DNA from: a virus
DNA: 31,175 nt
Strand: one strand, 5' to 3'
Virus record (IMG/VR): IMGVR_UViG_3300035182_000195
Span: 1 to 31,175 of that record
Below, in pieces: positions 7,265 to 31,175 of this stretch (position 1 is its first letter; each line of letters starts with the position of its first letter). The notes below the pieces were generated by a model. That model ran no database searches, had not been told where the DNA came from, and was given only the letters and a program-made list of their open reading frames with translations. The position numbers were made by a program, and so were the translations under genes.

Positions 7265-7274
7265 AGTATTCTCC

Positions 7275-11235: not shown

Positions 11236-12608
11236 ACAGTAGTGATTGCGGTAGATGGATTGATTCCCAACTTATCGGCATATTCTTTATTAACTTCGAC
11301 ACACCACTCCTTTAGTTCTTCCAGTGTATCTTCCAAAGTTCTGTTAGTTTCTGTTTGCTTTCCTGAAAGCATTTCATTATCGTAGATTCCTGTGAGAGAG
11401 ACTCCAAGTAGTCGCTCTTCTTCTGCGTTTCGTTTCCAGATGCTACGCACATATCGGAAGTCAGTGTAGGTAGATTGGACAGTTCCGAGAATAGTAGCGA
11501 TCCTAGCTTTTCGCTTAAGGTCCTCAATAGTGTCTGAGGATCGGACCACAATTTCTGTAAGATTACAGAGTCCTGCGGACCTAAGAGCAATCTCACCGCA
11601 AGGGTTTGTACCGACAATGAGTGAGCTATCTCTCCTTCCAATTTTGTCAGTCTTAGTTCTAATACCCTTTCGGAAATAGATTCCTCTTTCACCGGACTTG
11701 GACTCGTACAAGCTAGTCCACTCATGCAGAAATTCTCCGATACTTGGTTTCTCCTCATATACTGCTGAGTTATTAGCTAGAGCAAACTCTGGAAAACGTT
11801 CCCACCAATTACCACTTTTGGATGTACGCATCCTGCCGCTATGTAAATCTGATAGACTGATAAGAGCAGAGCGGCGTACACCGCCTACTACTACTACCTC
11901 ACCTATCTTACACACAATACCATGTACTTCTATGTCAGTGAGTTTACGGCCAACAGCGCCACGAAACAACTTAATGCAGTAATCAAACAAATCTACCAAG
12001 GGTTCCGGCCCACTAGCTCTACCACCAAAGACACGTAAGCGTGCGCCCTTTGCCCGAACTTTGCTAATATCAAACTTAGGAACCTTACCAGAGTATAATA
12101 AAGAAACCAACTCCCTAAAGCTACTAGCCCAGCCGATGCGACTATCCCCAACAACAATAGTAGTGTCAGTTTCATACATGCTCTCCGCTACTTCTGGTAG
12201 CTTGTTAATGTGCTGCTGTTCACAACTAAAGCCAATACCTGTTCCACAAGTAAGGATGTATAGTATCTCATCAAAGGCTCGTGGATGATCCACAGCTACG
12301 AAAGAACAGTTATACAGAGCCATATTATCTCGTTCTAACGCCTGTCCTGCGGACATAAGACCCCGCATAGATGGCATTACTTCTAATGTCAGGATAGCTG
12401 TAGCTATCTCTTCGTACAGCTTTAGATTATCTGGTAGGTCTACAATCTTAGGAACTACTACGTTGTCCATATAACGTCGTACTGTTTCTTCCCAAGTTTC
12501 CCGTCTACCTAAATCATCCCGCCAACGAGAATAGCGAGACTTAGCTATCACTTGCTGAAAGAGTGTTGGTAAATATGTGTCACCTTTTCTCTTAAAATTA
12601 TCTGTCAA
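11236..12608 (-). CDS. nrdJ: adenosylcobalamin-dependent ribonucleotide reductase, exon 1 (N-terminal)
   Basis: This is the 5' exon of a class II (B12-dependent, monomeric RTPR-like) RNR that converts ribonucleotides to deoxyribonucleotides. Visible catalytic residues are C101 (LYNCSF), C337 and E339 in NPCGEI (thiyl radical Cys and Glu) and C348 (LCNL), which with C101 forms the redox disulfide pair. CGTGIGFSCE and GVRRSA are further family signatures. The start is TTG at 12608, with AAGGA 6 bases upstream. Without splicing, translation reads 5 codons into the intron and stops at 11220, giving an inactive fragment. No partner small subunit or activase occurs in the window, as expected for class II. 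No cobalamin riboswitch was seen upstream. Confidence 0.9.
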
Positions 12609-18418: not shown

Positions 18419-18520
18419 TTATATAATTGGCTGAATTTCCGATGAATGCCTAATCACTATTCCCATAATAATTACCGCCAACCACAAAGGGTCTATTTTA
18501 TTAGGGGTATGTACAGTCAT
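18419..18520 (-). CDS. 33-residue membrane peptide
   Basis: Read from ATG at 18520, overlapping the helicase stop codon as ATGA: MTVHTPNKIDPLWLAVIIMG, then IVIRHSSEIQPII. One hydrophobic segment (PLWLAVIIMGIVI) is enough for a single membrane pass. Coupling to the helicase supports translation. Function unknown. Confidence 0.5.
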   Translation of the reverse strand: MTVHTPNKIDPLWLAVIIMGIVIRHSSEIQPII

Positions 18521-19737
18521 ACACTAGTTATCCTTGATAGTTGTGGGTTAATTCTTACTAAGAAATTCTCGTGCTTACCAGAGATTTTATTCTTTGGTAA
18601 ATTCAAACTACGTAGTCCTTCTGCTTCTATCTTGGCATCCATGCCAATACCTACCATCACATCAGCCTGCGCTGGGATACCTACGTTAGAGAAGTCAACA
18701 TCACCAGTCTCTAAAATAAGTTTTCCTGTTGCACTATCACCAGCCTGAGTAACGCTTATCATTAATGTATTAGTCTTCTTACCAATGTTACGCACAGCAG
18801 TAGCGGCTGCTTCTAATTGATTGACACGACTCTCAGCTTTTACTTTCAAGTTACGAAGCTGATCTACAATCACCCAGTCTGGATCATATTTACTAATGTA
18901 ATCTTCCAATTGCTGTGGGGTGCCCGGCGAAGCTGACACTACCATTACATTCTGAAAGCCTGCATCATTAGCTAATCGTTGTGCTCGCTTAGGGTCTGCA
19001 TGAATCTGAGTCTTGGTAAGACCACTAAGGTTAGCTACATGTCGCATGATAATATCTTGTGGCCGATCTTCATTGATGAAGTAGATGCCCTTCTTACCTT
19101 GTCGTGCAGCGCCGCTACTAACGGTAATAGATAGAGCAGTCTTACCTACTTCAACAGGGCCAAATAAAGTTAGGTGATGTGCTCGCTTAAGGCCACCATC
19201 TAATCTCTCATTAAGGCTATTAGGATATATCTTGATTAGATCATCAGGATTAAACTCCTGATGTATCATATCCTCAAGTTCTATATCATGGAATAGCTCA
19301 AGCCCCTCTTCTGCTAGCTCCTCTAGATTAGTCATAGATCGTAGGTGCTGAAGCTCTTGTATGAGGGTGTCTATCTTATCACTGCTACTATCCATAGCTA
19401 GGGCTTGTGCAAGCTTATCCCCGGCCTCCTGTTGCTTAGCTAGTAGTATGACCGCCCTCACATTAATATCGCTTCCTGTGCTCTCTACGGCCTCATTTAC
19501 TAGGTCTGTGAATCTAGCCACATGCTTCTCATTCCTAATAGATTCTGCAATCTGCGCTAATAGAATGCCAGCATCTACACTATTACAGTCATTGTCTCGC
19601 TTGTAATAATCCCCCACCTTACCCATGATAATTTGGAAGGGTTTAGAATAACTACCAGACTTAGTACTTATATAGGTTTGTATTAAATCAAAATCTTGTC
19701 GGCTTCGTAAAGAGGCAGCTAACAGGGGTTTTTCCAT
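18517..19737 (-). CDS. DnaB-like replicative helicase (separate from primase)
   Basis: The 406-residue product has an N-terminal helical domain (about 1-160) and a RecA-type ATPase domain. Walker A is GPVEVGKT (193-200), with catalytic Glu near 223 (FINEDRP). Walker B is WVIVDQ with D292. Further elements are the ISVTQAGDS segment (H3/H4 region) and KNKISGKHENF near the C-terminus. This is the DnaB/T7 gp4 helicase fold without the primase, which is encoded separately two genes upstream. It unwinds DNA 5'-3' ahead of the polymerase. ATG overlaps the metallophosphoesterase stop codon as TAATG. Confidence 0.92.
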   Translation of the reverse strand: MEKPLLAASLRSRQDFDLIQTYISTKSGSYSKPFQIIMGKVGDYYKRDNDCNSVDAGILLAQIAESIRNEKHVARFTDLVNEAVESTGSDINVRAVILLAKQQEAGDKLAQALAMDSSSDKIDTLIQELQHLRSMTNLEELAEEGLELFHDIELEDMIHQEFNPDDLIKIYPNSLNERLDGGLKRAHHLTLFGPVEVGKTALSITVSSGAARQGKKGIYFINEDRPQDIIMRHVANLSGLTKTQIHADPKRAQRLANDAGFQNVMVVSASPGTPQQLEDYISKYDPDWVIVDQLRNLKVKAESRVNQLEAAATAVRNIGKKTNTLMISVTQAGDSATGKLILETGDVDFSNVGIPAQADVMVGIGMDAKIEAEGLRSLNLPKNKISGKHENFLVRINPQLSRITSV

Positions 19738-20249
19738 TATTCAATTCCTCTTTTCTTATATCTCTTCAATACTTCCTCAAATAGAATAGGCCTGTAATTT
19801 GTTTGCTCTACACAGACATTCATATATCTAGGATCTTTCATCTCATATGAGTGTAGATGCCCATGAATGTTTCCCTTCCATCTACAAAACTGATCCGGGT
19901 GGACAGGAATATGACTAAGAAGAAAGTTATTCATTACGTGGTATGCTCTAATGTCTTTGAAATACGGAGCATATTCTTCGATCCTGAAAGCATCATGGTT
20001 GCCTTTGATAAGCACCTTCTCTCCATGTAACCTGTCGAGGAGAGGTAGATAGCGCCTATTAATAACCACATCGCCTAGGTGAATTACTTTATCATCTGGT
20101 TTAACCGTTTGGTTCCACCATAAGACCATCTCCTCGTTCATTTTCTGAACATCATCCCACGGTCTCACCTTACTACCATCAGGCTTGGTGAATCTTACCA
20201 TTCCTTGATGCCCAAAGTGAGTATCCGCTACAAGGAAGACACTAGACAT
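19737..20249 (-). CDS. calcineurin-like metallophosphoesterase
   Basis: The 170-residue product carries all metal-site motifs of the calcineurin-like phosphoesterase fold in order: VADTHFGHQ (8-16), HLGDVV (near 57-62), IKGNHDAF (near 81-88), LSHIPVH (near 110) and GHLHS (near 131). Small proteins of this type hydrolyse phosphodiesters or phosphomonoesters. Phage homologues are often found near replication genes and may act on nucleotides, RNA ends or DNA ends. The SD is GAGGAG, 5 bases before ATG. It overlaps the primase by 22 bases and the helicase as TAATG, placing it inside the primase-helicase unit. Confidence 0.93.
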   Translation of the reverse strand: MSSVFLVADTHFGHQGMVRFTKPDGSKVRPWDDVQKMNEEMVLWWNQTVKPDDKVIHLGDVVINRRYLPLLDRLHGEKVLIKGNHDAFRIEEYAPYFKDIRAYHVMNNFLLSHIPVHPDQFCRWKGNIHGHLHSYEMKDPRYMNVCVEQTNYRPILFEEVLKRYKKRGIE

Positions 20250-21022
20250 GTTAACTCCTCATCAGTCATATCCTTTATATCTTTCTCTAGTTGCACTGGA
20301 ATCATTCTGAGTTGCGAACGATAGGTACTGACGTACTTGATTGTTTTTCCCCATGCATCAGCATCAAGAGCCAGATACACCGGAGATAAACCGCTTGCTT
20401 TAATTTCTTGAATACGTTCATCGTTTAAATGCGTACCCAGTAAGGCAGCGGAAGACATAAAGTCCGAAGCCCGGATAGCTGAAAACTGATCCTCGACTAT
20501 AATGAGGCTTGTTGTATGTGGGTTGATAAACCATGATATAGCTCCTTGTTCTGTGTGCGTAAGTGTTTTTGGTTGCTGGCCTGAGAGGGATCGAAGGACT
20601 ACCCCAAGCCGTTCGCCCCGAAAGTCTTCAACGGGTATTGCGAGTCTATCTGTCTGCGTATCCCAGCCAATTCCGTATTTGGTGATATGTACTGGAGCGA
20701 GGTTATACTTAGATTTAAGTAGTTCTGTAGTACATTCTTCCAGTGCAACACTTTCTTTGAGGGCGGCCCTACCGACCATACCTCTAACGTCAGGTATTTT
20801 TGTCGTACACTTCTCTCTCGTAGTACCGCTAATTTGAGTAGCTCCTGCAAAAGAGCATGAAGCACGGTGGCATTTCCAGAGCAATGTTCCCTGTCTATTT
20901 GACACAGACAAAGTGTGTTCTTTAGTTGCTCCACCTCCGCACGCAGGGCAGAGTTCTCCCGCTCTAGATTCGCCATTCTGCAAAGCACAGTAAGTAAGCA
21001 AGATTGAGTCCCTGGCATTCAT
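20228..21022 (-). CDS. DNA primase (zinc-binding plus TOPRIM)
   Basis: The 264-residue product has an N-terminal zinc-binding domain with C25/C28 (CPACGG) and C51/C56 (CHRASC). The TOPRIM catalytic core has Glu177 (LIIVEDQFSA) and Asp220/Asp222 (YLALDADAWG). This matches the primase half of T7 gp4 and small DnaG-type phage primases; the helicase half is encoded separately. It synthesises RNA primers for lagging-strand replication. AAGGAG lies 4-5 bases before ATG. It begins only 9 bases after the GATase gene, so the amidoligase cassette and the replication genes are probably one transcript. Confidence 0.92.
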   Translation of the reverse strand: MNARDSILLTYCALQNGESRAGELCPACGGGATKEHTLSVSNRQGTLLWKCHRASCSFAGATQISGTTREKCTTKIPDVRGMVGRAALKESVALEECTTELLKSKYNLAPVHITKYGIGWDTQTDRLAIPVEDFRGERLGVVLRSLSGQQPKTLTHTEQGAISWFINPHTTSLIIVEDQFSAIRASDFMSSAALLGTHLNDERIQEIKASGLSPVYLALDADAWGKTIKYVSTYRSQLRMIPVQLEKDIKDMTDEELTCLVSSL

Positions 21023-21030
21023 AATTCTCC

Positions 21031-22254
21031 TTAATGGATTGTGGAAGTTTTATCTGCTGGTTCAAATTCTTCATAGCTCTTTGGATGGGTGCATACTACC
21101 ACAATCCCACTACCATCATCAATGACGCCTATAATACTAACGTTAGCTAGTACATCATCCATTGCAGTTACTACTTTGAGAGTACCGGCATTACGAATCA
21201 TGCCATCATATTCATAAGTCTTGCCATCTTTCTCTTCGCCGTAGACTAGACCATAAACAATATCTTCTTCTTTGTTATATTCTTGCCCCATAAATACAGC
21301 CTTACGGCCAATTACATTGCGTTCTTTAGCCAAGGCTAACTCATCCTGTGTGACCAAGGGCGGCTTATCTTTTGGTGGCGGTAGTACTTTATATGTAGTA
21401 TCAATAGGTTTGGGTTTTTCTTCCTCTTTTACCTTGCCGAAGATAGCTTCTAGCTTTTCCATCGTACTCATATACTTATGGGAGTAAGACACAACAGTTG
21501 AAGCTTGTGCAGTATATTTAGGCAGTTCTTCCTTTGTATAAGCTTTGATATTATTTACGTCAAATTTATACCAATGATCTGCTTTAAGTTTGATAATACT
21601 ACCATCTAACTTAAGATTATTACGCTCCATAAGCCAATTTAACATACCAGCTTCAGAAGCATAGTACATACCCTTACCACTATCAAAGCCTACATACATA
21701 TTGCGTTCTTTGTTAAGAGCAAAGTTTAGAATAGTAGGAGTATCGCTATCCCACCATACAAAACAATAAGCCCCAAAGAATTCCTTGAAAGCTTCTACTC
21801 CCTTGTTATAAATCATATGTAACGCCCATTCACTATCTACGGCAAATTTAGCGCTATTAAGCTTGCCTGCCCAACCAGTAAGAGTGCCGTTATGAACTCC
21901 TATTAATTGTCGAGAAGTCTGAATATCACTATAAGCACTATCACAATCTATGATAAATGGATGTGCTTGGTCATACCCATTACCGCCACTAGTAGTAGCA
22001 CGGTCATGCCCAATAGCAATAGTATTTTTACCACACGCTTCTCGCATAAGCTCATGAGCGTAAGCATTGTCTTTAAACACAATACCCGGTACTGGAAGTT
22101 TTTGCATAGCAATTGCTAGTGTGTCTGTGTCGATTACTGCAAGTCCAGTGGCATTTTCGCCACGAAGACAGTTAGCTACAAAAGCATCTTTTAGAAAATC
22201 ACCAGCATTATTGTTACGCTCTTTACCAAGAACACTGCCATGAATACCGCACAT
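21031..22254 (-). CDS. class II glutamine amidotransferase (Ntn), large
   Basis: The 407-residue product begins MCGIHGSV, so Cys2 is the N-terminal nucleophile after Met removal. Further class II GATase landmarks are GHDRATTSGG (82-91), VHNGTLTGW (120-128; the oxyanion Asn-Gly) and DSEWAL (140-145, binding the glutamine amino group), as in GlmS and PurF-type glutaminase domains. The C-terminal 180 residues (after about 225) are not a synthetase or sugar-isomerase domain and look like a separate lineage-specific part. It releases ammonia from glutamine, presumably for the adjacent amidoligase, whose stop codon lies one base before its ATG. Confidence 0.92.
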   Translation of the reverse strand: MCGIHGSVLGKERNNNAGDFLKDAFVANCLRGENATGLAVIDTDTLAIAMQKLPVPGIVFKDNAYAHELMREACGKNTIAIGHDRATTSGGNGYDQAHPFIIDCDSAYSDIQTSRQLIGVHNGTLTGWAGKLNSAKFAVDSEWALHMIYNKGVEAFKEFFGAYCFVWWDSDTPTILNFALNKERNMYVGFDSGKGMYYASEAGMLNWLMERNNLKLDGSIIKLKADHWYKFDVNNIKAYTKEELPKYTAQASTVVSYSHKYMSTMEKLEAIFGKVKEEEKPKPIDTTYKVLPPPKDKPPLVTQDELALAKERNVIGRKAVFMGQEYNKEEDIVYGLVYGEEKDGKTYEYDGMIRNAGTLKVVTAMDDVLANVSIIGVIDDGSGIVVVCTHPKSYEEFEPADKTSTIH

Positions 22255-22255
22255 A

Positions 22256-23767
22256 TTAACGATTCCTCACATTAGGTACTACACGAGTGGTAGTTGTAAC
22301 TGGAGTTTCAAGATAAGTAGGAGTATTCCAAACAACTGGATTATCTTCCATTATAGGAATTCTAGGAGTCGGACGGCCTGTTCGTGCGGCCGGACGTGCG
22401 TCAGCAGTGTTGAGAGCAGCAGCAACGTTAATAGGAGTAGCAGTAAGCCTATATAGATTTGAGTACTGCCTCGCCCAAGTTAAAGCTTCATTATATGCCT
22501 CAGTATGTCCCGCGAATAAGTCTACTGCTCCAACAATTGCTTCTTCTAGTCGGGGGATTAATAGAACAAACTTATCCCAAGCAGCCTGAGTAATATGCCT
22601 AGGTTTTAGTATGTTTGTTACAGGAATAACCTGCTCGAAAGAAGAGACACGAGTCCAAACTTGATCTAAATTTACATAAACATCAGAGACATGTTTAAGG
22701 GCGCTATTTGTAAGATTTATTAGCATTTGTAAATCAGGAGTATTGCTTGGCGGCACCCTTTGCCCTGGTTCACTTCCCAGTACGAATACAGGTATTAGTT
22801 CATTAATTACTGGGTCTACTTTTGCCTTTGTAACCTTTAAGAATCTACTTAATGCTTTGTTTTTAGTAATAGCCTCAGGATTGAAAGCCCTATTAGGTAT
22901 TCGCTGTTTATAGCTATTGGTAATAGTTTGTGCCTTATAGAATGCATTGAGAGCTGTTATGCGGGGCACTACACGAAAGAAAGTATCTGCCCACTCAGTA
23001 AAATATTTAATAATGAACTGCATATACGTATCTTCATTACGAATAATTTGTTCAAGTTCGTCTACAGATTGAAGGGACATAGCTGCTTTCTTAAAACTTT
23101 GAATAAGTTTTACCCATCCAATAAGTTCTTCTTCGTTAGTAGCTGTAGGAAAATGACGAAACTCGATAGACCCAAAGCGAGATAAGGCTTGTAAATTTAC
23201 ACCATAATAACGATCTTGCCCTTCATCTGCTCCTTCAAAAAAGCGAAGAGCATCTACATAAGATGCTTCTGTCATAGTAAGTACTGCACTTAATGCTTGA
23301 TCTGGCAAATAAGTCATTGGGTTACAGAAGCCGCACACCTTACGTCCGCCACCAGCAATAGCAAAGATAGCTTCTTCAAAACAATATGTTACTAATACCA
23401 TCATTGGAATAGCGTTAGGTGATGTGTCATTTTCTAACATATCAATATGGATATGAGTACTACCTGTCGTAGTCTTAAAGAACTTACTTCCTTCAAAAAG
23501 CTCCTTAATAGCCGCATCTAAGTAGCTACCAGCATAGGGCTGTGCCAATACATATTCTATACCATTACGTAGTGAACCATCATTCTTGGCTTGCCAAAAT
23601 GATAATCCTCTAGTTGGAGCAAAGACAGTTAGCCGCTCAGGATCACGATCAACTTCTACTTCAATACCCATAAGCTGTTCCGGTAAGGGCCAAATAACCC
23701 TATCTGGCACTACCTTTACCCGCGCCCGCTTACCTAAAAGCTCTGCTACTGAGCGTACTTTACTCAT
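22256..23767 (-). CDS. amidoligase (GCS-like COOH-NH2 ligase)
   Basis: The 503-residue product carries the signature of the amidoligase/glutamate-cysteine ligase fold, which joins a carboxylate to an amine using ATP. GIEVEVD (34-40) supplies metal-binding Glu residues. KNDGSLRNGIEYV (61-73) contains the D-x-S-L and E residues, STHIHIDM (103-110) the His pair, and FGSIEFRHF (198-206) the late E-x-R motif. The C-terminal half (about 250-503) is helical with a Pro/Thr/Arg-rich tail. It is flanked by a GATase and an unknown protein (ATGA overlap), so ammonia or an amino compound is the likely amine donor. The substrate is unknown. Confidence 0.9.
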   Translation of the reverse strand: MSKVRSVAELLGKRARVKVVPDRVIWPLPEQLMGIEVEVDRDPERLTVFAPTRGLSFWQAKNDGSLRNGIEYVLAQPYAGSYLDAAIKELFEGSKFFKTTTGSTHIHIDMLENDTSPNAIPMMVLVTYCFEEAIFAIAGGGRKVCGFCNPMTYLPDQALSAVLTMTEASYVDALRFFEGADEGQDRYYGVNLQALSRFGSIEFRHFPTATNEEELIGWVKLIQSFKKAAMSLQSVDELEQIIRNEDTYMQFIIKYFTEWADTFFRVVPRITALNAFYKAQTITNSYKQRIPNRAFNPEAITKNKALSRFLKVTKAKVDPVINELIPVFVLGSEPGQRVPPSNTPDLQMLINLTNSALKHVSDVYVNLDQVWTRVSSFEQVIPVTNILKPRHITQAAWDKFVLLIPRLEEAIVGAVDLFAGHTEAYNEALTWARQYSNLYRLTATPINVAAALNTADARPAARTGRPTPRIPIMEDNPVVWNTPTYLETPVTTTTRVVPNVRNR

Positions 23768-24405
23768 AGTGTATTCTCCAAAGTCTTACAAACAATAGGA
23801 ATTTTACAATTGATACTTCCATCTTCTTCGACAATACCTACCTTATGTGTCTTGAAAAAGATTGCCTTAGTATTATTTACTTCCGGCATAATAGCTAGAG
23901 TAGGGGAAATGCAGAATGAAAATAAGTCTCCCTTATTCATAGCCTCTATACCATCTTTTAATGTAACAAACTCAGGCCGCATAATTATTTGAACCACATT
24001 AGAAGTACGACTGTAATATTCAGTACTAATAGATCCATGAGTATTTAAGAACTGAGTAGAGGGAGCAATATAAGTTGTAATATTATTTGGGGCAAGTCCT
24101 CTATGATTTGATCTAGTAACCTTAGAGTAGTGTGCTAAATAGCGCCCTTGTGCAGCCATTCGCCAGCCCAAAGTAGGAGTAGCAAATACTGAAAGATCAG
24201 TAAAGAAATCTCCAGGCATTTGTATACGTTCAGTCTTAGGCTTTTCTACAGTACCGCTAAGTTTAATAATAGGAACTGCGTCTGGCATAGTCCATTGACT
24301 GTTGTCCTCAGAAATGTAACAAACATTTTTGTCAGCGTCAAAAAACATACTGCCATAAAAACGTTGCTGCATATACGCACGACCAAGTTCTTTTAGCAGA
24401 TTCAT
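23764..24405 (-). CDS. uncharacterised protein of the amidoligase cassette
   Basis: The 213-residue product begins MNLLKELGRAYMQQRFYG and then becomes beta-rich: GSMFFDADKNVCYIS, VVQIIMRPEFVTL and KAIFFKTHKVGIVEED. No family was recognised and no catalytic motif is obvious. It overlaps the amidoligase as ATGA, and AAGGA lies 5 bases before its ATG. Such tight coupling suggests a partner, such as a carrier, substrate-binding or target protein for the ligase; this is inference. Confidence 0.75.
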   Translation of the reverse strand: MNLLKELGRAYMQQRFYGSMFFDADKNVCYISEDNSQWTMPDAVPIIKLSGTVEKPKTERIQMPGDFFTDLSVFATPTLGWRMAAQGRYLAHYSKVTRSNHRGLAPNNITTYIAPSTQFLNTHGSISTEYYSRTSNVVQIIMRPEFVTLKDGIEAMNKGDLFSFCISPTLAIMPEVNNTKAIFFKTHKVGIVEEDGSINCKIPIVCKTLENTL

Positions 24406-24407
24406 AT

Positions 24408-24707
24408 CTATCCTTCCCTTACTGTGTAACCTGCATATTTAAGTTCATCTACTACTAATTGTTTGTGTGGTTTTAGGTATGCCACATTTGTGTGTCTAGT
24501 AATCTTGGGAGCCTGAATTGCTACTGATTTATACTCGCACTTTTTAGCATCTACAATTTCCATCAAATCAAACTCTTCCACATGATTAGTAGATGTTATT
24601 CCTAATCTCTTTAGCATTTCTTCAACAGCTCGTGCAACTCCATTAGCTTCAAACCGAACGCGCAAAGTAACTCCTCCCTTGCGTACTATTGCTAAATAGT
24701 CTGCCAT
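24408..24707 (-). CDS. uncharacterised small protein of the amidoligase cassette
   Basis: The 99-residue product reads MADYLAIVRKGGVTLRVRFE and continues with a helix (AVEEMLKRLGI), a beta strand (FDLMEIVDAKK) and a Lys/His-rich end (HKQLVVDELKYAGYTVREG). The pattern is a small alpha/beta fold; no known domain was recognised. GAGGAA lies 5-7 bases before ATG. It sits between the ATP-grasp gene and the unknown 213-residue gene. Confidence 0.72.
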   Translation of the reverse strand: MADYLAIVRKGGVTLRVRFEANGVARAVEEMLKRLGITSTNHVEEFDLMEIVDAKKCEYKSVAIQAPKITRHTNVAYLKPHKQLVVDELKYAGYTVREG

Positions 24708-24709
24708 GC

Positions 24710-25552
24710 TTATTCCTCTACAATTAAAGCAGGATGAATAACTTTCTTGTAATTACGATAATGAGTAGGTTCTGGAAAATGATCTTTGCCATTGGTAATA
24801 ATATAATCAAAGCACTTAGCAAAACACTTCTGCCGATAAGGACTGGTTTGTGAAGGTGCTGAATTTACTTCTAACACGAAGGCTTTGCCCGCAGCATCTA
24901 CCATTACATCAACGCCACAGAAGTCTGTGCCGCTAACCTTAGCCGCAGCAATAGCTTCCTTTACTACTTGCATAGGCCAATTATCCCACCTCACATTCTC
25001 AAATTTACCGCCTTGAGCTACGTTCCAAGCTACTTGATCTGGATTACCGGGAGTCTTCTGTGCTACCCATGCCACACGATTCTGAATAACAGCAACGCGA
25101 TACTCTGCTACCTTATTAATTAATTCAGAAACATAACCACCACCCCAAGCTCGTACCTGTCTTACACACTCGTCTAAACGTCCTGTAATCAGATTGCGGC
25201 CTTGAGCATGGTGAGCTGGCCTACCCACCCACGTAGGGATATTATTAGCATTTAAAAACACTTGCACAGGGGCAGTAGTAAGAACACTAATGGTCTTAGG
25301 AACAGACACATTAGCTTCTTGCATATCTAACCTACCCTGCCGCTTATCACTACACCAATGGATAGACTTGGCAGAGTTTACCGCCTTAGCGCCTTCTGGA
25401 ATATTACTAGTGCATCCCCAGCGAAACACATATTCAATATCAGTAGGAAAAGGGGCATCATTACGTAATACAGAAAGCCCTGTAGTAGAGGCTTCTTGAA
25501 TGCCTTTACAACTACCATGCCCAAGTTTACGACGACGCAATAAAATATTCAT
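24710..25552 (-). CDS. ATP-grasp carboxylate-amine ligase
   Basis: The 280-residue product, read from ATG at 25552 in a TAATG overlap with the GATase, begins MNILLRRRKLGHGSCKGIQ. Its N-terminal part includes VFRWGCTSNIP and QEANVSVPKTISVL, typical of the ATP-grasp pre-domain. The ATP-binding core includes GRPAHHAQGRNLI. The metal-binding end is FCGVDVMVDAAGKAFVLEVN, with Asp, Glu and Asn ligands as in RimK-like enzymes. ATP-grasp ligases form an acyl-phosphate and couple it to an amine, often adding amino acids to a peptide or metabolite. It stands in the centre of the cassette between two unknown genes and a GATase. Confidence 0.9.
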   Translation of the reverse strand: MNILLRRRKLGHGSCKGIQEASTTGLSVLRNDAPFPTDIEYVFRWGCTSNIPEGAKAVNSAKSIHWCSDKRQGRLDMQEANVSVPKTISVLTTAPVQVFLNANNIPTWVGRPAHHAQGRNLITGRLDECVRQVRAWGGGYVSELINKVAEYRVAVIQNRVAWVAQKTPGNPDQVAWNVAQGGKFENVRWDNWPMQVVKEAIAAAKVSGTDFCGVDVMVDAAGKAFVLEVNSAPSQTSPYRQKCFAKCFDYIITNGKDHFPEPTHYRNYKKVIHPALIVEE

Positions 25553-26139
25553 TAGTAGCTTCTCTCCCATCCGGCCATACCGGGGTATAATTGTCGTGCG
25601 TGATTATCACTGTACGTATAATTGGAATACCAAATATCATTACGCCAGTGTCCACTTGCTTCATTCATAATCAAATATTTACCACTATCAAACAAGAAAG
25701 CTACTTTATTAAAACTAAGAGCATCTTCAATAGCTTGCTTATTTTTTAGCAATGTTTCATATTTAAACTTATCTGCAAAATGTTCTGTAAATAAAGCTGT
25801 ATCAGATTTGCCAGATAAATTCTGTGCTCTTGTACCTCCGATTGTTCCATTATGGATTAGGGCTCCGCCTGGAAATTGAAAGGGATGGGTATTGGAAATA
25901 TCTTTATCTCCTAAACTACGAATACGAAAATGAATAAGAAAGGGACTATCTTTATTGTGTTTAAAATGATTTTTGTATCCTTGTAAGAATTCATCCCAGT
26001 TTAAATATCCTTTACGGATAGCTACTTTGCCATTCTTTATGAACGCAAAGCCAGCACCGTCGGAATTTTCTGCCCAGCTATTCTTCAAATGATTTTCAGG
26101 AATCTCTAACTTAGCTGGCTTATAAATAGCAATGCACAT
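25552..26139 (-). CDS. class II glutamine amidotransferase, compact form
   Basis: The 195-residue product begins MCIAIYKP with Cys2 as nucleophile. DGAGFAFIKNG, FLIHFRIRSLGD (the conserved Arg near 73) and GGALIHNGTIGG (HNG near 97) are class II glutaminase landmarks, and SDTALFTEHFAD supplies the SD motif for glutamine binding. This is the short, glutaminase-only form often annotated in phages. It differs clearly in sequence and length from the 407-residue GATase of the same cassette, so it is not a recent duplicate. It precedes the ATP-grasp gene with a TAATG overlap, pairing a nitrogen donor with that ligase. Confidence 0.9.
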   Translation of the reverse strand: MCIAIYKPAKLEIPENHLKNSWAENSDGAGFAFIKNGKVAIRKGYLNWDEFLQGYKNHFKHNKDSPFLIHFRIRSLGDKDISNTHPFQFPGGALIHNGTIGGTRAQNLSGKSDTALFTEHFADKFKYETLLKNKQAIEDALSFNKVAFLFDSGKYLIMNEASGHWRNDIWYSNYTYSDNHARQLYPGMAGWERSY

Positions 26140-26145
26140 CAGGAA

Positions 26146-26367
26146 TTAACCTCGGCTCATAGGAACTACAAGGTCTTCGGGGTAGAGAATAGCTATATGT
26201 TCTGGGTTATCTACATTCTCAGCCCAGCTTTCTAGCTTGCGGTAGACCGTAGTATCTTTGGACTTACGAATATTACGACTAGGCTCTGCAAAAATTGTAA
26301 ACTTGGAGCCTGGAATTAGTTTGTAATAGCGAATAGGGCGTACAATCTTTTCTTGTTTGGTATTCAT
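26146..26367 (-). CDS. uncharacterised basic small protein
   Basis: A 73-residue product: MNTKQEKIVRPIRYYKLIPGSKFTIF is not assigned to a family; the centre contains EPSRNIRKSKDTTVYRKLES and the end is hydrophobic (EHIAILYPEDLVVPM). It looks like a small beta-barrel-type fold. It lies 6 bases before the compact GATase gene in the same direction. Confidence 0.7.
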   Translation of the reverse strand: MNTKQEKIVRPIRYYKLIPGSKFTIFAEPSRNIRKSKDTTVYRKLESWAENVDNPEHIAILYPEDLVVPMSRG

Positions 26368-26376
26368 AATTATTCC

Positions 26377-26676
26377 TTAGAGTTCGGTAGGATTTTCAGC
26401 ATCATCTAATTCAGGAAACACTTCGATTTCGTTAGGATGCTCCCATAGAGGTAGAGGCCAGCCAGTCTCTGCGTAAAATTTACGCCTACGTTTTGTCTCT
26501 CTCTTAGCAGAATTCTTACCTGTGTTAAAAGTAATTCCTTTACTTTCTTTCTGCTTCTCACCAATTACATTTCCTTCCTTATCTAGAATATCTTCTAGAT
26601 AATAATACTTGGCTACATGAACTAACCTAGGTACTACTTTCAAACTCTTGATATATGCCCAATGTTCCTTTTGCAT
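26377..26676 (-). CDS. uncharacterised basic protein
   Basis: A 99-residue product from ATG at 26676, with AGGAG 8 bases upstream: MQKEHWAYIKSLKVVPRLVH, then YYYLEDILDKEGNVIGEK, a Lys/Arg-rich centre (GKNSAKRETKRRRKFYAETG) and an acidic tail. The composition suggests nucleic-acid contact, but no domain is recognisable. Confidence 0.7.
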   Translation of the reverse strand: MQKEHWAYIKSLKVVPRLVHVAKYYYLEDILDKEGNVIGEKQKESKGITFNTGKNSAKRETKRRRKFYAETGWPLPLWEHPNEIEVFPELDDAENPTEL

Positions 26677-26677
26677 A

Positions 26678-27001
26678 TTAACTACTCCTACGTGTATGCT
26701 CAACGTGCTTAACCTTGAAATCGCGAATTGCTAATTGACAACTTTCACAAGGCGCAGCAAGTTGCGGTTTATGATTTTTATCAAAGCGCATTACTACAAG
26801 TTTATATACTCTAGCCCTTGCTTTAATAAGAGCATCAAGTTCTGCATGGATATAGATAGACTTTGGTTTGCCTACCATAGCTCCATACTTAGCTTGTAGT
26901 GGATGCGTACGAATGTACGAGTTCTTGCCGACGGCTAGAAGCCGCCCTCTCTTGTCATAAGCAAGGGCTGTTATTTCGTAGCGTTTAGTTTTGCTTTTCA
27001 T
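26678..27001 (-). CDS. cytidine/deoxycytidylate deaminase-fold protein
   Basis: The 107-residue product has the zinc site of the cytidine deaminase superfamily: H52-A-E54 (YIHAELDAL) and P84-C85-x2-C88 (PCESCQLAI), with the helices between them in the right order. It is shorter than free-standing dCMP deaminases and resembles the minimal phage deaminases. It could deaminate free (deoxy)cytidine nucleotides or a modified base or metabolite. It overlaps the upstream membrane-protein gene by 17 bases and is followed directly by the basic 99-residue gene. Confidence 0.85.
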   Translation of the reverse strand: MKSKTKRYEITALAYDKRGRLLAVGKNSYIRTHPLQAKYGAMVGKPKSIYIHAELDALIKARARVYKLVVMRFDKNHKPQLAAPCESCQLAIRDFKVKHVEHTRRSS

Positions 27002-27188
27002 CTACAACATCCAGCCAAGCTTTAGCCACAGACCACGGCACCATCCACACCATACCTAGAATATAAACTAGGTAAAGTAGAACGATACTAAAAGCCATAG
27101 CTGTTTCAAACAGAGGACGATTGGGAGTAAATACTTCTCGCCAGTATTGCTTTATATACTCTTGGCGCTTAAGAAATTTGGAAGGCAT
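26985..27188 (-). CDS. small membrane protein
   Basis: A 67-residue product from ATG at 27188 (AAGGA 6 bases upstream): a basic N-terminus (MPSKFLKRQEYIKQYWREVF) and one hydrophobic segment near residues 28-52 (FETAMAFSIVLLYLVYILGM), then an amphipathic end. It is a single-pass membrane protein with a cytoplasmic N-terminus by the positive-inside rule. Function unknown; it might tether cassette enzymes to the membrane. Confidence 0.75.
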   Translation of the reverse strand: MPSKFLKRQEYIKQYWREVFTPNRPLFETAMAFSIVLLYLVYILGMVWMVPWSVAKAWLDVVDEKQN

Positions 27189-27190
27189 AG

Positions 27191-27379
27191 TCAATCCTTA
27201 TATCGCTTAAATGTTGACTTAGTTTTAGGTGTAGTTGATTGTCCTATAATTTTTGCTACAAAATAATCCATAGTTGTTTCAGAAGAAACATTATTAGCTA
27301 CTTTAATAGCAGCTTCTTCCGTTTCAAAATCATCACCATACACAGCCCAATCTTCATCAAATACTACATATTTAGCCAT
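27191..27379 (-). CDS. uncharacterised small protein
   Basis: A 62-residue product from ATG at 27379 (GGAG 7 bases upstream): MAKYVVFDEDWAVYGDDFET, then EEAAIKVANNVSSETT and a basic Thr/Lys-rich tail. The beta-hairpin-then-helix layout is common among small phage proteins of unknown role. No family recognised. Confidence 0.7.
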   Translation of the reverse strand: MAKYVVFDEDWAVYGDDFETEEAAIKVANNVSSETTMDYFVAKIIGQSTTPKTKSTFKRYKD

Positions 27380-27380
27380 A

Positions 27381-27497
27381 TCAATTCTCCACTTGTAAGG
27401 CATCAGGAGGATCAAGGTCATCTGGACCCTTGAGTATAAAATACAAAAACACTGCTGCTAATACTGTTACTAGAATTTTAGAAGCAAAATGAAGCAT
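27381..27497 (-). CDS. 38-residue membrane peptide
   Basis: Read from ATG at 27497 in a TAATG overlap: MLHFASKILVTVLAAVFLYF is one hydrophobic helix, followed by an acidic Pro-rich tail (ILKGPDDLDPPDALQVEN). The stop codon is 1 base before the next gene's start. Function unknown. Confidence 0.62.
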   Translation of the reverse strand: MLHFASKILVTVLAAVFLYFILKGPDDLDPPDALQVEN

Positions 27498-27619
27498 TAG
27501 TAATTACTCCCTTGTCGGCTATAAATATGCTCTAGAATACAGCAGGCAATATAACCAATGCAGCATACAGCTAATACCACACTAGTAATTGCTATTAGCT
27601 TTAATCCTAGAGTAATCAT
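27497..27619 (-). CDS. 40-residue membrane peptide, Cys-rich
   Basis: Read from ATG at 27619 in a TAATG overlap: MITLGLKLIAITSVVLAVCC, then IGYIACCILEHIYSRQGSNY. It has one long hydrophobic helix carrying two Cys pairs. It ends in TAATG shared with the next membrane peptide. Two adjacent small membrane peptides in this order may form a unit; function unknown. Confidence 0.65.
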   Translation of the reverse strand: MITLGLKLIAITSVVLAVCCIGYIACCILEHIYSRQGSNY

Positions 27620-27804
27620 TATTTTACAATCCTTAGCACAGGTTTTGTGCGTTCTGGCTTTCGTAAACTTTCGTTATATTCTCGTCGCTTTTGCGTAGCC
27701 GCTTTAGCTTGCTCATTCAGATCATTGATCTGCCCAATAGCTAATGTTATCTGCGGATTTATAGCTCGTAGTTTTGCTAATGCTGCATACAATTGCAAAT
27801 TCAT
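27619..27804 (-). CDS. small helical protein
   Basis: A 61-residue product: MNLQLYAALAKLRAINPQITLAIG, then a charged helix (LNEQAKAATQKRREYNESL) and a basic tail. It is predicted entirely helical, possibly coiled-coil. No domain recognised. It follows amidoligase type 2 within 10 bases and is TAATG-coupled to the membrane peptide gene. Confidence 0.7.
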   Translation of the reverse strand: MNLQLYAALAKLRAINPQITLAIGQINDLNEQAKAATQKRREYNESLRKPERTKPVLRIVK

Positions 27805-27813
27805 AACTACTCC

Positions 27814-29244
27814 TTAATCAAGTTTGTTTGTCTCACCCCAAGTCTTAATTGTAGTAGCCATACATCCACGATCATTCGACGAATGTGTGAGCCAAGTACC
27901 TGAAAGACTCCAAGCAGAAGAGGGATAATCAGGGTTAGTTAAAAACTTATCTATACCTTGGTAAATCATATTACGCCAAGGGGCACGCGCAGCCTCGTAG
28001 GTGCTACTATTCCTAATATGAGGAGGAATATTAACGGCAGCGTCTGCAATTGCCGGTACACAATCAAGAAGAAGATTGAGAACATATTCATTACGCTTTA
28101 GAATATTGTGAGCTAAACTCACATCACATTCATTAATACACTTTCGTACTTCTTCTTCCGAAGCTACCCATTCATCAAATTTGTGGGAATAGTTCTTGAT
28201 AGCTTGCCCCATAATCAAACGAGCAAGTTCAAATACAAAGTGACCGATAGCTGGATGGCACAGCCATGCGTTGCTAAGTACGCGGTACTCAAGACCATGC
28301 TTAGGAGTACGATACTCGCCAGCACGCCCGTACATAATACGACGGCGAGGATCATCGTAATACTGAAACATACTGACAGCAATAACACCTAGAACACTGT
28401 CTAGTGCCTTGACAATCTCAGGAATATACTTCCTATGTTCTTCATCCAAGCTAAAGTGCATATGCCCTCCTGCTGAACGGAACGGAACAGTACGAGGATT
28501 TTCTTGTGGGAATGTTTCACCATATACGCTGAAGCTAGGCTTACACCCAAAGGCTACATATTCTTCCTTGTCATTTTGTAGTCGTTCAGGAGGAATCTCA
28601 AATGTGTTACGCAGTGTAAGATTAGCACCTGGAAATTTCTTACGAAGAGCCTTCCGTGTATTGTGTAACCCAGTACGCACACTGTCAAAGAAATACGCCA
28701 TACAATTCTCTGGAACAGTTGTATACTCCGCTTGGTAGCCATCCCAATAAGGGAAGGCAACATCACATGGTCGTTTAGTAAATACTTCAAACGCTGGTAT
28801 CAAATTACTATCAGCATCTACACAAAAAATCTCAGGATCAGCGCCAATATAGTTATGATACTTGTTATACCTAATCGTATTACGACATAATTCTTCTTTT
28901 TTCTCAGCAAAAAGTGCGCTTAGCTCCTTTGATTTGCGCTTGATTTCATACACCTTATAACCTCTATCAAAGTAGTTATACACTTCTTCTTTCTTTGTCA
29001 GATTATAGGCTTCTAATTTTGAACACGTATCACCAATCTTAGATACCCGATAAGGAATAATAATTCCCTCAGGTGGCCTAGGGTGAGTATAGTTATAGCG
29101 AGATTTACCTGCTGGTAGCTGGCCTGGAAGAAATTCAAAAAGCTTATTCTTGGTATTCATGTTTTCCAGTTCACCAAGAGTATGCGTCTTACGGGGTGAT
29201 GCACGCTTTACTACTTTTTCAACAACTGCTTCAGCAGTAGACAT
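27814..29244 (-). CDS. phiEco32-like COOH-NH2 ligase type 2 (amidoligase 2)
   Basis: The 476-residue product is taken from ATG at 29244 (MSTAEAVVEKV; GAGG 8 bases upstream), because the longer reading would overlap the GGCT gene by 119 bases. YIGADPEIFCV (about 132-142) is the defining motif of the phage phiEco32-type amidoligase family, an acid-rich metal site. Further family landmarks are WDGYQAEYT (Glu near 173), SAGGHMHFSL (257-266) and GLEYRVLSNAW. The N-terminal 100 residues are extra. It would form an amide between a carboxylate and an amine with ATP. It belongs to a different subfamily from the 503-residue ligase, so the cassette has two ligations. Confidence 0.9.
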   Translation of the reverse strand: MSTAEAVVEKVVKRASPRKTHTLGELENMNTKNKLFEFLPGQLPAGKSRYNYTHPRPPEGIIIPYRVSKIGDTCSKLEAYNLTKKEEVYNYFDRGYKVYEIKRKSKELSALFAEKKEELCRNTIRYNKYHNYIGADPEIFCVDADSNLIPAFEVFTKRPCDVAFPYWDGYQAEYTTVPENCMAYFFDSVRTGLHNTRKALRKKFPGANLTLRNTFEIPPERLQNDKEEYVAFGCKPSFSVYGETFPQENPRTVPFRSAGGHMHFSLDEEHRKYIPEIVKALDSVLGVIAVSMFQYYDDPRRRIMYGRAGEYRTPKHGLEYRVLSNAWLCHPAIGHFVFELARLIMGQAIKNYSHKFDEWVASEEEVRKCINECDVSLAHNILKRNEYVLNLLLDCVPAIADAAVNIPPHIRNSSTYEAARAPWRNMIYQGIDKFLTNPDYPSSAWSLSGTWLTHSSNDRGCMATTIKTWGETNKLD

Positions 29245-29257
29245 AGTATTGTCCTCA

Positions 29258-29653
29258 TTAGTTACGGTGTTCCCAGGCATTAGGGAGGCGATTTGCTTCA
29301 TACTCTTTCCAATCTCCTGACTCAATAATGGGGAGATTCCATACCCCAAATACGGGGTCCATAATATAACCGCCAATGTAACAAAAAGCTTTTAGTTGTT
29401 GTTTAGTAGCGATATCTTCTATTGCTACTTCTGCTTTGATAAATAAATTGGTACGAAGGTTTTCGATATAATCAAATTCTGCTTCCTTATGTTCATCTAC
29501 TTCTAGCAGATTGCCTACTACAATACTCGTATGAGTTTCATCTGCATGAAGAATAGGAAAGTTTCCATAGTCTCGCATGATAAAGCCGCGAAGCCTATGG
29601 GTAGGTTCAGCCCCATAAGGGCGTAATGTGCCATACACAAAAAAAGGTCTCAT
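29258..29653 (-). CDS. gamma-glutamyl cyclotransferase-like (GGCT/AIG2) protein
   Basis: The 131-residue product has the GGCT/AIG2-like fold signature: FFVYGTLRPYG (4-14, the substrate loop), LRGFIMRDYG, SIVVGNLLEVDE, then EFDYIENLR with the conserved Glu-containing D-x-x-E-N element. Members release gamma-glutamyl groups as 5-oxoproline or act on gamma-glutamylamines. Its place beside amidoligase 2 implies removal or trimming of the gamma-glutamyl-type bonds the ligases make. The SD GGAGG, at the end of the preceding 21-codon gene, lies 7 bases before ATG. Confidence 0.9.
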   Translation of the reverse strand: MRPFFVYGTLRPYGAEPTHRLRGFIMRDYGNFPILHADETHTSIVVGNLLEVDEHKEAEFDYIENLRTNLFIKAEVAIEDIATKQQLKAFCYIGGYIMDPVFGVWNLPIIESGDWKEYEANRLPNAWEHRN

Positions 29654-29843: not shown

Positions 29844-30010
29844 TTATAGTCCTTCATTACGAAGTATGCCAACCCCGCCAGAAAGGCGCCAATCGCGGAC
29901 GGCATAAAAGCAGGTGATGTGAACAGGTGTCCGCCGGAAATCCAAAAGACAAACCACGCGTTCGTATAGATCAGTGCCGCTAAGAGCATCGCTTTGGTGT
30001 TATTGCTCAT
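29840..30010 (-). CDS. 56-residue protein with two membrane segments
   Basis: Read from ATG at 30010 in an ATGA overlap: MSNNTKAMLLAALIYTNAWF begins the first hydrophobic helix and FMPSAIGAFLAGLAYFVM is the second, ending in a short basic tail (KDYK). Size and two-helix topology would suit a holin-like or other small membrane protein, but no lysin is adjacent, so holin function is unsupported. GC-rich codon use as in its neighbours. Confidence 0.65.
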   Translation of the reverse strand: MSNNTKAMLLAALIYTNAWFVFWISGGHLFTSPAFMPSAIGAFLAGLAYFVMKDYK

Positions 30011-30294
30011 TTCATTTCTCCTGATTTGGGGTAGGTGCCGACTGGCAGATGCAAGCCATACAGCCTATACACACGCGCCCGTTCGACCCTTTCTGCTTTG
30101 CGGTCAGCGATCCGCTCCCCTAGACTGACAAGTCTCCCTACAACATAGACCGCGATGAGGTTCGGCAGAAAAATAGGCCAAAGCAGAAACCATATGGCCC
30201 AGTCCCTTGCTTCGTTGTACGAGAGTTTTATTCCACAGCCAATCGGCCAAGCAATGCAGCCGGTGATATAGACGAATAGCAGAAAGTTAATCAT
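30007..30294 (-). CDS. small two-pass membrane protein with basic C-terminus
   Basis: A 95-residue product from ATG at 30294, whose start overlaps the repeat-protein stop codon by 8 bases (ATGATTAA). Two hydrophobic stretches (MINFLLFVYITGCIAWPIG, and DWAIWFLLWPIFLPNLIAVY) are followed by a highly charged arm (RIADRKAERVERARVYRLYG). The positively charged tail is probably cytoplasmic. The role is unknown; the overlap with the repeat protein suggests a functional or membrane-anchor partnership. Confidence 0.7.
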   Translation of the reverse strand: MINFLLFVYITGCIAWPIGCGIKLSYNEARDWAIWFLLWPIFLPNLIAVYVVGRLVSLGERIADRKAERVERARVYRLYGLHLPVGTYPKSGEMK

Positions 30295-30748
30295 CGTTGT
30301 AAGCCCGCACAAAGCCACCAGTCCGATTGAAGCTAGTGATGATGACGTTGTTGTCGTAACCATGCACATAACCACCGGACTGGTTATAGCTAGCGACGTT
30401 GGCGTTCTCGTAGGCCCGCACATTGCCGTCAATCTGGCCGTGGCTAGTGATGCTAGCGTTGTCGAAGGCCCACACATCGCCGCCTGACTGGCCAAAATTG
30501 GTGATGCTGGCATCGTCGTAGACCCACACAACGCCACCGGACTGATTGGAACTGTTAATACTGGAGTTGTCATAGGCCCACAAATAGCCGCCAGTCTGAC
30601 CGGAGCTAGTAATGTTGGCGTTGTTATAGGCCCGCACATTGCCGCCAGTCTGATTGACGACATTAACGGCGCCGCTGCGGACGTTGTAGATTTCGCCATT
30701 CTTCGGGCTGATAGTCTCGCCATTGTGGACTTCAATTTCGTTACTCAT
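30287..30748 (-). CDS. beta-solenoid protein of 18-residue repeats
   Basis: A 153-residue product from ATG at 30748 (MSNEIEVHNGETISPKNGEI). It overlaps the upstream repeat gene by 8 bases (ATGAGTAA). After a 45-residue cap come about seven repeats of 18 residues, for example GGNVRAYNNANITSSGQT and GGYLWAYDNSSINSSNQS. The consensus is G-G-x-(V/L)-x-(A/V)-(Y/F)-(D/N)-N-x-S-I-x-S-x-x-Q-(S/T), as expected for one coil of a beta-helix per repeat. Repeats of this AYDN type occur in phage and surface proteins; here they could bind a surface or carbohydrate. No catalytic motif. Confidence 0.8.
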   Translation of the reverse strand: MSNEIEVHNGETISPKNGEIYNVRSGAVNVVNQTGGNVRAYNNANITSSGQTGGYLWAYDNSSINSSNQSGGVVWVYDDASITNFGQSGGDVWAFDNASITSHGQIDGNVRAYENANVASYNQSGGYVHGYDNNVIITSFNRTGGFVRAYNDD

Positions 30749-31175
30749 TTCGCTTCCCCTTGATGATGCTAGAGTTGCCGTAGGCACGTACGTTACCGCC
30801 AGATTGGCTAAGGCTAGTAATGATGGCGTTGTTGTAGCTCTCCACATAACCACCGGACTGACCAGAGCTGTTGATACTGACGTTATCGTGTGCCCACATA
30901 AGCCCACCAGCTTGGGCGGAGCTGTTAATACTGGTATTGTTGTAGCCCTTCACATAACCACCAACCTGGTCGGAGCTAATGATGCTAGCGGTATTATGAA
31001 TCTCCACGCCACCACCGAACTGATTGAGGCTAGTAATACTGGCATTGTCGTAGCCTTCCACGTAGCCGCCAATCTGTCTGGAACTGTTAATACTGGTATT
31101 GTTGTAGACCAGCACTACACCACCAGCTTGGTCGTAACTGTTAATACTGGAGTTGTCGAAGACCCACATACTGCC
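30290..31175 (-). repeat. tandem 54-bp coding repeat array across two genes
   Basis: About 14 imperfect 54-bp units run through both repeat genes; each encodes 18 residues. Because 54 is a multiple of three, long spurious frames stay open in the other registers. The DNA units are diverged, so the array is old rather than freshly amplified. The array ends at the stop codon of the second gene and extends beyond the right edge of the window. Confidence 0.8.
30741..31175 (-). CDS. second beta-solenoid repeat protein, N-terminus outside window
   Basis: The frame is open to the right edge, so the start is missing. At least 144 residues carry about seven repeats of the same 18-residue unit as the next gene (for example GGVVLVYNNTSINSSRQI and GGYVEGYDNASITSLNQF), ending in a basic tail (SSIIKGKRNE). 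It ends 8 bases into the downstream repeat gene. The two genes may be a tandem duplication, or one long solenoid later split by a stop/start. Confidence 0.75.
   Translation of the reverse strand, partial: GSMWVFDNSSINSYDQAGGVVLVYNNTSINSSRQIGGYVEGYDNASITSLNQFGGGVEIHNTASIISSDQVGGYVKGYNNTSINSSAQAGGLMWAHDNVSINSSGQSGGYVESYNNAIITSLSQSGGNVRAYGNSSIIKGKRNE

Follow-up and report, generated by a model that had tools for sequence, protein, structure and literature searches.

A phage amidoligase module was reportedly predicted from comparative genomics by Iyer and colleagues in 2009; it has been suspected of cell-wall modification since then, and its product is still unproven. Three citing papers report that prediction (PMC5498523, PMC6256558, and PMC11945000), and PMC5498523, citing Hardies 2013, describes a "peptidoglycan modification cassette" of the RIO-1-like phages phiEco32, 7-11, PA11, tf, MR299-2, LUZ24, PaP3, and CW02. 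Later papers repeat the peptidoglycan-modification label (PMC6256558, PMC10580990, and PMC11945000), and both a role in superinfection exclusion and a change of the host wall or surface are predictions made in that literature (PMC10580990 and PMC5498523). The module occurs commonly among lytic phages that infect Gram-negative hosts, Pseudomonas and Escherichia coli phages isolated for therapy among them. Here, we analyzed such a gene cassette at 21031-29653 of IMG/VR virus record IMGVR_UViG_3300035182_000195, a 31,175-base record (hereafter the window) that is apparently a tailed-phage fragment and also encodes a family A DNA polymerase, a DnaB/KaiC-like helicase, a primase, MazG, and a class II ribonucleotide reductase.

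An earlier reading of the DNA letters (the original prediction) had described this region as a one-strand, phiEco32-like set of amide-bond enzymes. Pfam and PHROGs searches bore this out: two ligases of the glutamine synthetase (GS) fold, an ATP-grasp ligase, two class II glutaminases, and a gamma-glutamyl cyclotransferase (GGCT) were recovered, so that all component families were found, and every open reading frame (ORF) named in that reading is present on the minus strand. The main components, in the order of transcription, are as follows.

29258-29653, minus strand: GGCT, AIG2/BtrG-like, first gene of the run (Pfam GGACT, 2e-10)
27814-29244 (ORF open to 29376), minus strand: CNL, a COOH.NH2 ligase type 2 of the GS/GCL superfamily (Pfam COOH-NH2_lig, 3e-13)
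25552-26139, minus strand: GAT2, a compact class II glutaminase (PHROG_25883, 6e-11, and iterative hidden Markov models)
24710-25570, minus strand: ATP-grasp ligase, RimK-like (Pfam RimK, 9e-7)
23764-24405, minus strand: U213, a 213-aa protein of a core family that lacks annotation (~190-220 aa), encoded upstream of AMD (iterated profiles)
22256-23767, minus strand: AMD, an amidoligase (Amidoligase_2) of the GS/GCL superfamily (Pfam, 9e-6)
21031-22254, minus strand: GAT1, a class II glutaminase with a C-terminal extension (Pfam GATase_6, 3e-10)

Conservation of catalytic residues was assessed in 43 to 145 homologs, depending on the enzyme. These residues were nearly invariant, and every one is kept in the window enzymes; the ligase active sites, whose degeneracy had been named beforehand as a refutation, are intact. 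GGCT (GGACT, 41.7 bits; cut-off, 22.8) has the conserved YG and E64, the latter found in 93% of 43 homologs. CNL (PF14395, 50.1 bits; cut-off, 25) keeps GxDPE (D180/E182), R300, H305/H307, E363, and R365, and its start is more likely ATG 29244 (476 aa), which follows GGCT by 13 bp and has an AGGA-like box, than TTG 29376. AMD (PF12224, 26.2 bits; cut-off, 22; PHROG_7469, 2e-36) keeps the GxExE, HxH, and ExR motifs, with E36, E38, H105, H107, R142, E202, and R204 conserved in 77 homologs. The AlphaFold model of AMD (pLDDT 69.8 overall) is confident in the core only, its C-terminal part being low, and its top PDB matches were YbdK (1r8g, E = 6.5e-5) and then glutamine synthetases, at low TM-scores (0.25-0.40). 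The ATP-grasp enzyme (RimK, 29.1 bits; cut-off, 21; PHROG_2599, 9e-17) matched solved RimK/alpha-L-glutamate ligases by profile (1e-10) and has conserved K76, E156, R158, K172, D221, E234, and N236; it fell below the Pfam cut-offs for the R2K (CDC123-like) families (R2K_2, 24.5 versus 26.2; R2K_3, 22.9 versus 26.3), which RimK outscores. Both glutaminases begin with Met-Cys, which supplies the N-terminal Cys of class II glutamine amidotransferases (GATases). GAT1 has conserved Cys2, H83, R85, H121-N122-G123, and D140; GAT2, which had no Pfam match, has Cys2, NTHPF, HNGT, and SDT in its sequence. Sequence profiles against the PDB gave no relatives for AMD, CNL, or U213, and PDB sequences gave no significant match for GAT2, GGCT, or the deaminase-fold protein described below; profile matches to RanBP2, eL36, and FEN1 were discarded as chance.

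The cassette has intergenic gaps of -41 to +13 bp, forming one operon-like, coupled run in which an AGGA-like box precedes most genes. Six enzymes with intact catalytic motifs are thus encoded as one coupled run with replication genes. No fusions between cassette components were found.

The window shares with the module of phiEco32, LUZ24, PaP3, tf, PA11, RIO-1, PSA-HP1, and CW02 a CNL, a U190-family gene (U213 in the window), AMD, a class II GATase, an ATP-grasp ligase, and GGCT, all encoded on the same strand, with primase, helicase, and polymerase genes close by. CNL, AMD, class II GATase, ATP-grasp, and GGCT genes that are co-directional near replication genes are the features by which a phiEco32-type module is recognized. 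The window differs in its second, compact glutaminase, its very divergent U213, its long CNL with extensions, and its own gene order (GGCT-CNL-...-GAT2-ATP-grasp-U99-U213-AMD-GAT1). The locus is a real, intact, phage-borne member of the known phage amidoligase module.

Distribution of the cassette was examined across phage and cellular genomes. Of 50,697 phage records, tblastn recovered 302 with CNL and 279 with AMD, from phages of Pseudomonas, Escherichia, Vibrio, Aeromonas, Proteus, Salmonella, and other hosts; a nucleotide search of the records with the cassette found no relative. In 13 annotated reference-phage neighborhoods, GATase, AMD, and ATP-grasp genes were present in all 13 and CNL in 12. 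Since CNL and AMD are each rare, yet 12 of 13 phages retrieved through one carry the other, the gene set is not a chance one. Related IMG/VR loci were retrieved by CNL (80 loci) or by the ATP-grasp ligase (two loci); AMD as a single query retrieved none. Among 43 viral CNL loci flanked by 7 kb or more on each side, 39 had a GATase, 35 an ATP-grasp ligase, 26 AMD, 18 a second CNL-type ligase, and 22 GGCT, and 135 of 136 cassette neighbors were co-directional. The expected co-occurrence in related phages was therefore seen in 12 of the 13 reference phages and in most IMG/VR loci, and the neighborhood survey found the main enzymes recurring together on one strand. That the cassette is an assortment of unrelated auxiliary genes, brought together by chance or in decay, is scarcely credible: a deaminase gene and several small ORFs, including one for a 69-aa membrane peptide, are indeed not conserved, but the intact catalytic residues and an order and strand conserved over many phage groups refute this explanation.

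Some relatives depart from the common composition. In soil-type phages (L020-L037), a divergent CNL relative occupies the AMD position, and in three jumbo-phage contigs of 433-452 kb (L015, L017, and L018), two or three tandem CNL genes are followed by a long GGCT-like gene, with no other cassette component detected in the stretch examined. A single-peptide-pattern scan of 84,980 bacterial and archaeal species matched just seven contigs of metagenome-assembled genomes (MAGs), and because of this low number the cassette looks essentially phage-borne. Each of the seven had CNL, a U190-family gene, AMD, and an ATP-grasp ligase, and six had a GATase. Named hosts among the phages listed were all diderm bacteria, a point in favor of the peptidoglycan target proposed below. 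Near the cassette, Slicky01 (L003:2982-5263) and LAh_9 (L014:13133-16271) also carry genes for ribose-phosphate pyrophosphokinase and for nicotinate phosphoribosyltransferase, which may form a set for NAD salvage.

New in this comparison is the recognition of U213 as a core family. In each of the 13 reference phages, the gene immediately upstream of AMD has ~190-220 codons and no annotation, and iterated profiles join the window U213 to these genes at identities of just 11-19%. The family has 48 members in the loci examined and seven more in the MAG contigs (7/7); it corresponds to phrog_11055 or phrog_4877, which have no function in PHROGs, and it matched nothing in Pfam. The U213 model (pLDDT 86.5) matched a Salinivibrio phage CW02 protein in BFVD (E = 7e-9, TM 0.6), with six further BFVD matches below 1e-5; a fold search against the PDB gave no match, the best hit (E = 0.15) being discarded. 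No relatives of U213 were found in soil phages L020-L037, where its slot holds one of two other small conserved families, a PFPG-PTR type or a Cys-rich WGVPLC type. By sequence comparison, U213 is thus a core component of the module, not a universal one. It has no strictly invariant Lys or Glu. Its probable role is that of a non-enzymatic partner dedicated to AMD, and as a previously overlooked part of the core it would belong in any reconstitution. U213 is one of two proteins encoded between the ATP-grasp ligase and the amidoligase that the original prediction had left as unknowns; the other, of 99 aa (U99), has no sequence homolog in related loci.

Also new is the finding that one ligase of the window appears exchanged for an unrelated one relative to its nearest relatives. 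In FastTree trees, window GAT1, AMD, U213, ATP-grasp, and GGCT sit beside IMG/VR contig L095 (supports of 0.94, 0.98, 0.95, 0.55, and 0.92, respectively), next to which lie IMG/VR contig L096 and Stenotrophomonas phage StenR_269 (L002) for GAT1, AMD, and U213 and L096 for ATP-grasp. These three loci have the window's order of small GATase, ATP-grasp, U213, AMD, and GATase, followed by primase and helicase; L002 and L095 also have GGCT upstream, and a GAT2 homolog lies directly upstream of the ATP-grasp gene in all three. Window CNL, in contrast, clusters with enzymes of soil and jumbo phages (L015-L020, 0.80; wider clade, 0.999). No CNL was found by sequence or PF14395 in L095, L096, or StenR_269, in searches of whole records that may be incomplete contigs and with no positive control. 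In place of the PF14395 enzyme, they carry an unannotated protein with GxExExG, HxxIS, and E(F/L)K motifs, encoded as follows.

L095:3741-4652: GS-motif protein (motifs)
L096:8474-9298: GS-motif protein (motifs)
L002:4831-5718: GS-motif protein, first of two copies in StenR_269 (motifs)
L002:6692-7699: GS-motif protein, second copy in StenR_269 (motifs)

The L095 gene has GGCT directly on one side and the next shared gene directly on the other. The protein had no match in Pfam or PHROGs, and from its motifs, the sole basis for the assignment, we infer a putative GS-type ligase. An apparent profile match of the StenR_269 copy at 6692-7699 was rejected, the alignment behind that profile (A3) already containing the sequence. 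Most simply read, the pathway was retained through the exchange of one ligase: a GS-type ligase would have been replaced at its own position, with the remaining enzymes left as they were, so that a two-ligase pathway would be kept. Such a natural swap predicts that two unrelated ligases make the same bond.

A third new observation is a peptidase C26 gene that adjoins the cassette in 35 of 95 loci and shares its strand in every case (for example, L004:6766-7410 and L012:4672-5307). The C26 family includes gamma-glutamyl hydrolases and PuuD. In the Puu pathway (PuuA/PuuD) and in butirosin biosynthesis (BtrJ/BtrG), a gamma-glutamyl ligase is paired with a C26 hydrolase or a GGCT that removes the group. 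The phage loci resemble these pairs, by description, in placing GS-fold or ATP-grasp ligases alongside C26 or GGCT; they differ in that no aldehyde-oxidizing or acyl-carrier parts were seen at the window locus. C26, GGCT, and GS-fold ligases together provide the means to make and to break gamma-glutamyl amides. The recurrent C26 gene thus supports gamma-glutamyl chemistry for the module, and the association with a gamma-glutamyl hydrolase narrows that chemistry.

These parallels raise a possible, on the whole unlikely, alternative in which the product is a diffusible gamma-glutamyl metabolite made by protection, modification, and deprotection, as with PuuA/PuuD and BtrJ/BtrG. One GS-fold ligase would attach gamma-glutamate to an amine as a cap, the capped amine would be modified by the ATP-grasp enzyme together with the glutaminase/ligase pair, and GGCT or C26 would uncap a product serving anti-defense or host nitrogen supply. 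GGCT and C26 are the two families known to strip gamma-glutamyl groups in such pathways, the required GS-fold ligase is present, and such genes in planctomycete phage ZRK32 are tied to nitrogen use, the phage promoting growth on ammonium, a correlative result (PMC10945688). However, C26 was not found in the window fragment, the presence of GGCT in just 22 of the 43 well-flanked loci indicates that not every locus deprotects, neither a transporter nor a carrier was seen, and a PADLOC scan showed nothing defense-like.

Very likely, the module forms amides, probably gamma-glutamyl ones, at the expense of ATP and with ammonia drawn from glutamine. CNL and AMD would activate a carboxylate by ATP as an acyl-phosphate and join it to an amine; the carboxylate would most likely be the glutamate gamma-carboxyl, as in the fold relatives glutamine synthetase, YbdK, and GCL. 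The class II glutaminases would free ammonia from glutamine to yield a primary amide, the RimK/D-Ala-D-Ala-ligase-like ATP-grasp enzyme would add a further amino acid or amide, and GGCT (joined by C26 in other phages) would remove or recycle gamma-glutamyl groups, with U213 serving the second ligase. In the least certain step, a cytoplasmic peptidoglycan precursor would be amidated or extended during infection, and the wall so altered would work against rival phages or lysins. The combined reading, in which a glutamate-containing acceptor (such a precursor being the likeliest) is amidated or ligated, has about an even chance of describing the system as a whole; the peptidoglycan precursor as target, taken by itself, is a tentative assignment that falls somewhat short of even. 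Glutaminase-dependent amidation of peptidoglycan stem peptides acts on cytoplasmic precursors and alters hydrolase sensitivity (PMC4155827), and the proposed phage system resembles AsnB1 or MurT/GatD in coupling a glutaminase to ATP-dependent amidation at that stage. The ligases themselves differ, those of the phage being of the GS-fold and ATP-grasp types and neither AsnB nor Mur ligases. Two evolved isolates of Pseudomonas aeruginosa phage FJK acquired missense mutations in both the amidoligase (gp22) and the GATase (gp23), suggesting selection on the cassette (PMC11450229).

Several points weigh against the peptidoglycan target. GS-fold enzymes can act on other carboxylates, lytic infection leaves little time for wall renewal, and Pfam found no peptidoglycan-binding, Mur-ligase, or export domain in the cassette genes. 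The sparse jumbo-phage sets of two or three CNL genes and GGCT fit other targets, as does the nitrogen-metabolism reading of ZRK32. The FJK amidoligase and GATase mutations lie among many others, including changes in the virion peptidoglycan transglycosylase and other structural genes (PMC11450229), and the literature found gave no demonstrated product for any phage with the module. A self-contained gamma-glutamyl phage pathway with two GS-type ligase slots fillable by unrelated families and a product new to cells is a doubtful proposition; it includes a U213, of a fold without a solved relative, that would hold the substrate or couple ligase to glutaminase. Glutamylation or amidation of a host or phage protein, as by RimK on ribosomal protein S6, is improbable. 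The ATP-grasp profile does match RimK/alpha-L-glutamate ligases best, and protein modification has been proposed for the R2K ATP-grasp clade (PMC4431377), but three ligases, a glutaminase, and GGCT exceed the needs of a protein modifier, and U213, the sole constant non-enzyme, lacks an invariant residue of the kind that would mark an acceptor.

The coupled run extends past the cassette, with gaps of +8, -22, and -1 bp, into replication genes at 18517-21022 (Pfam).

20228-21022, minus strand: primase
19737-20249, minus strand: calcineurin-like phosphoesterase
18517-19737, minus strand: DnaB/KaiC-like helicase

A promoter scan showed no excess of sites (23 versus 32 in shuffles). Because the cassette lies in the replication run and adjoins genes for primase, helicase, and polymerase, both here and in relatives, it might be supposed to hypermodify phage DNA bases. 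This is very improbable: Pseudomonas phage Rembedalsseter carries CNL and AMD, and comparison of its nanopore reads with amplified DNA gave no modification motif (PMC11780129).

The remaining ORFs of the cassette are small. The homolog search covered 95 related loci and the ORFs above the size cut-off, all but the 38- and 40-aa peptides.

27619-27804, minus strand: 61-aa protein with a ribosome-binding-site-like box; no homolog
27497-27619, minus strand: 40-aa single-transmembrane peptide, 1-bp overlap with its neighbors
27381-27497, minus strand: 38-aa single-transmembrane peptide, 1-bp overlap with its neighbor
27191-27421, minus strand: soluble protein of 76 aa or shorter; no homolog
26985-27194, minus strand: 69-aa single-transmembrane peptide; no homolog
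26678-27001, minus strand: small deoxycytidylate-deaminase-fold protein (PHROG_174, 3e-10), HAE and PCxxC intact
26377-26676, minus strand: ~100-aa protein, AGGAG box before ATG 26676; no homolog found
26146-26367, minus strand: 73-aa protein, homologs in StenR_269 (L002), L095, and L096 only
24408-24707, minus strand: U99, 99-aa protein; no sequence homolog

No homolog was found in related loci for the 69-, 76-, 61-, 99-, and 108-aa ORFs; L002 and L095 have ORFs that resemble U99 in position, not in sequence. The 73-aa ORF and the compact glutaminase beside ATP-grasp are features of the StenR_269/L095/L096 group. The deaminase-fold protein has intact zinc motifs and scores below the Pfam cut-off (dCMP deaminase, 1e-4, 22.4 bits versus 25); its gene occurs in 3 of 96 loci, and it is a passenger, not a core component. 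The small membrane proteins had been taken to favor a membrane-linked target, an argument left unsupported, as the 69-aa peptide has no homolog in the related loci; the three single-transmembrane peptides look like real ORFs and give no argument for such a target.

Outside the cassette, 54-bp tandem repeats at 30007-31169 (minus strand) encode 18-residue repeats of the type QSGGxVxAYDNASITS and span two overlapping ORFs in different frames (30287-30907 and 30741-31169), for which Pfam gave no family. The class II ribonucleotide reductase gene at 9856-12608 (minus strand) is interrupted by a group I intron (Rfam RF00028, 10996-11246, 72.4 bits), and a GIY-YIG/NUMOD3 homing endonuclease is encoded at 10444-10980 in the same gene region.

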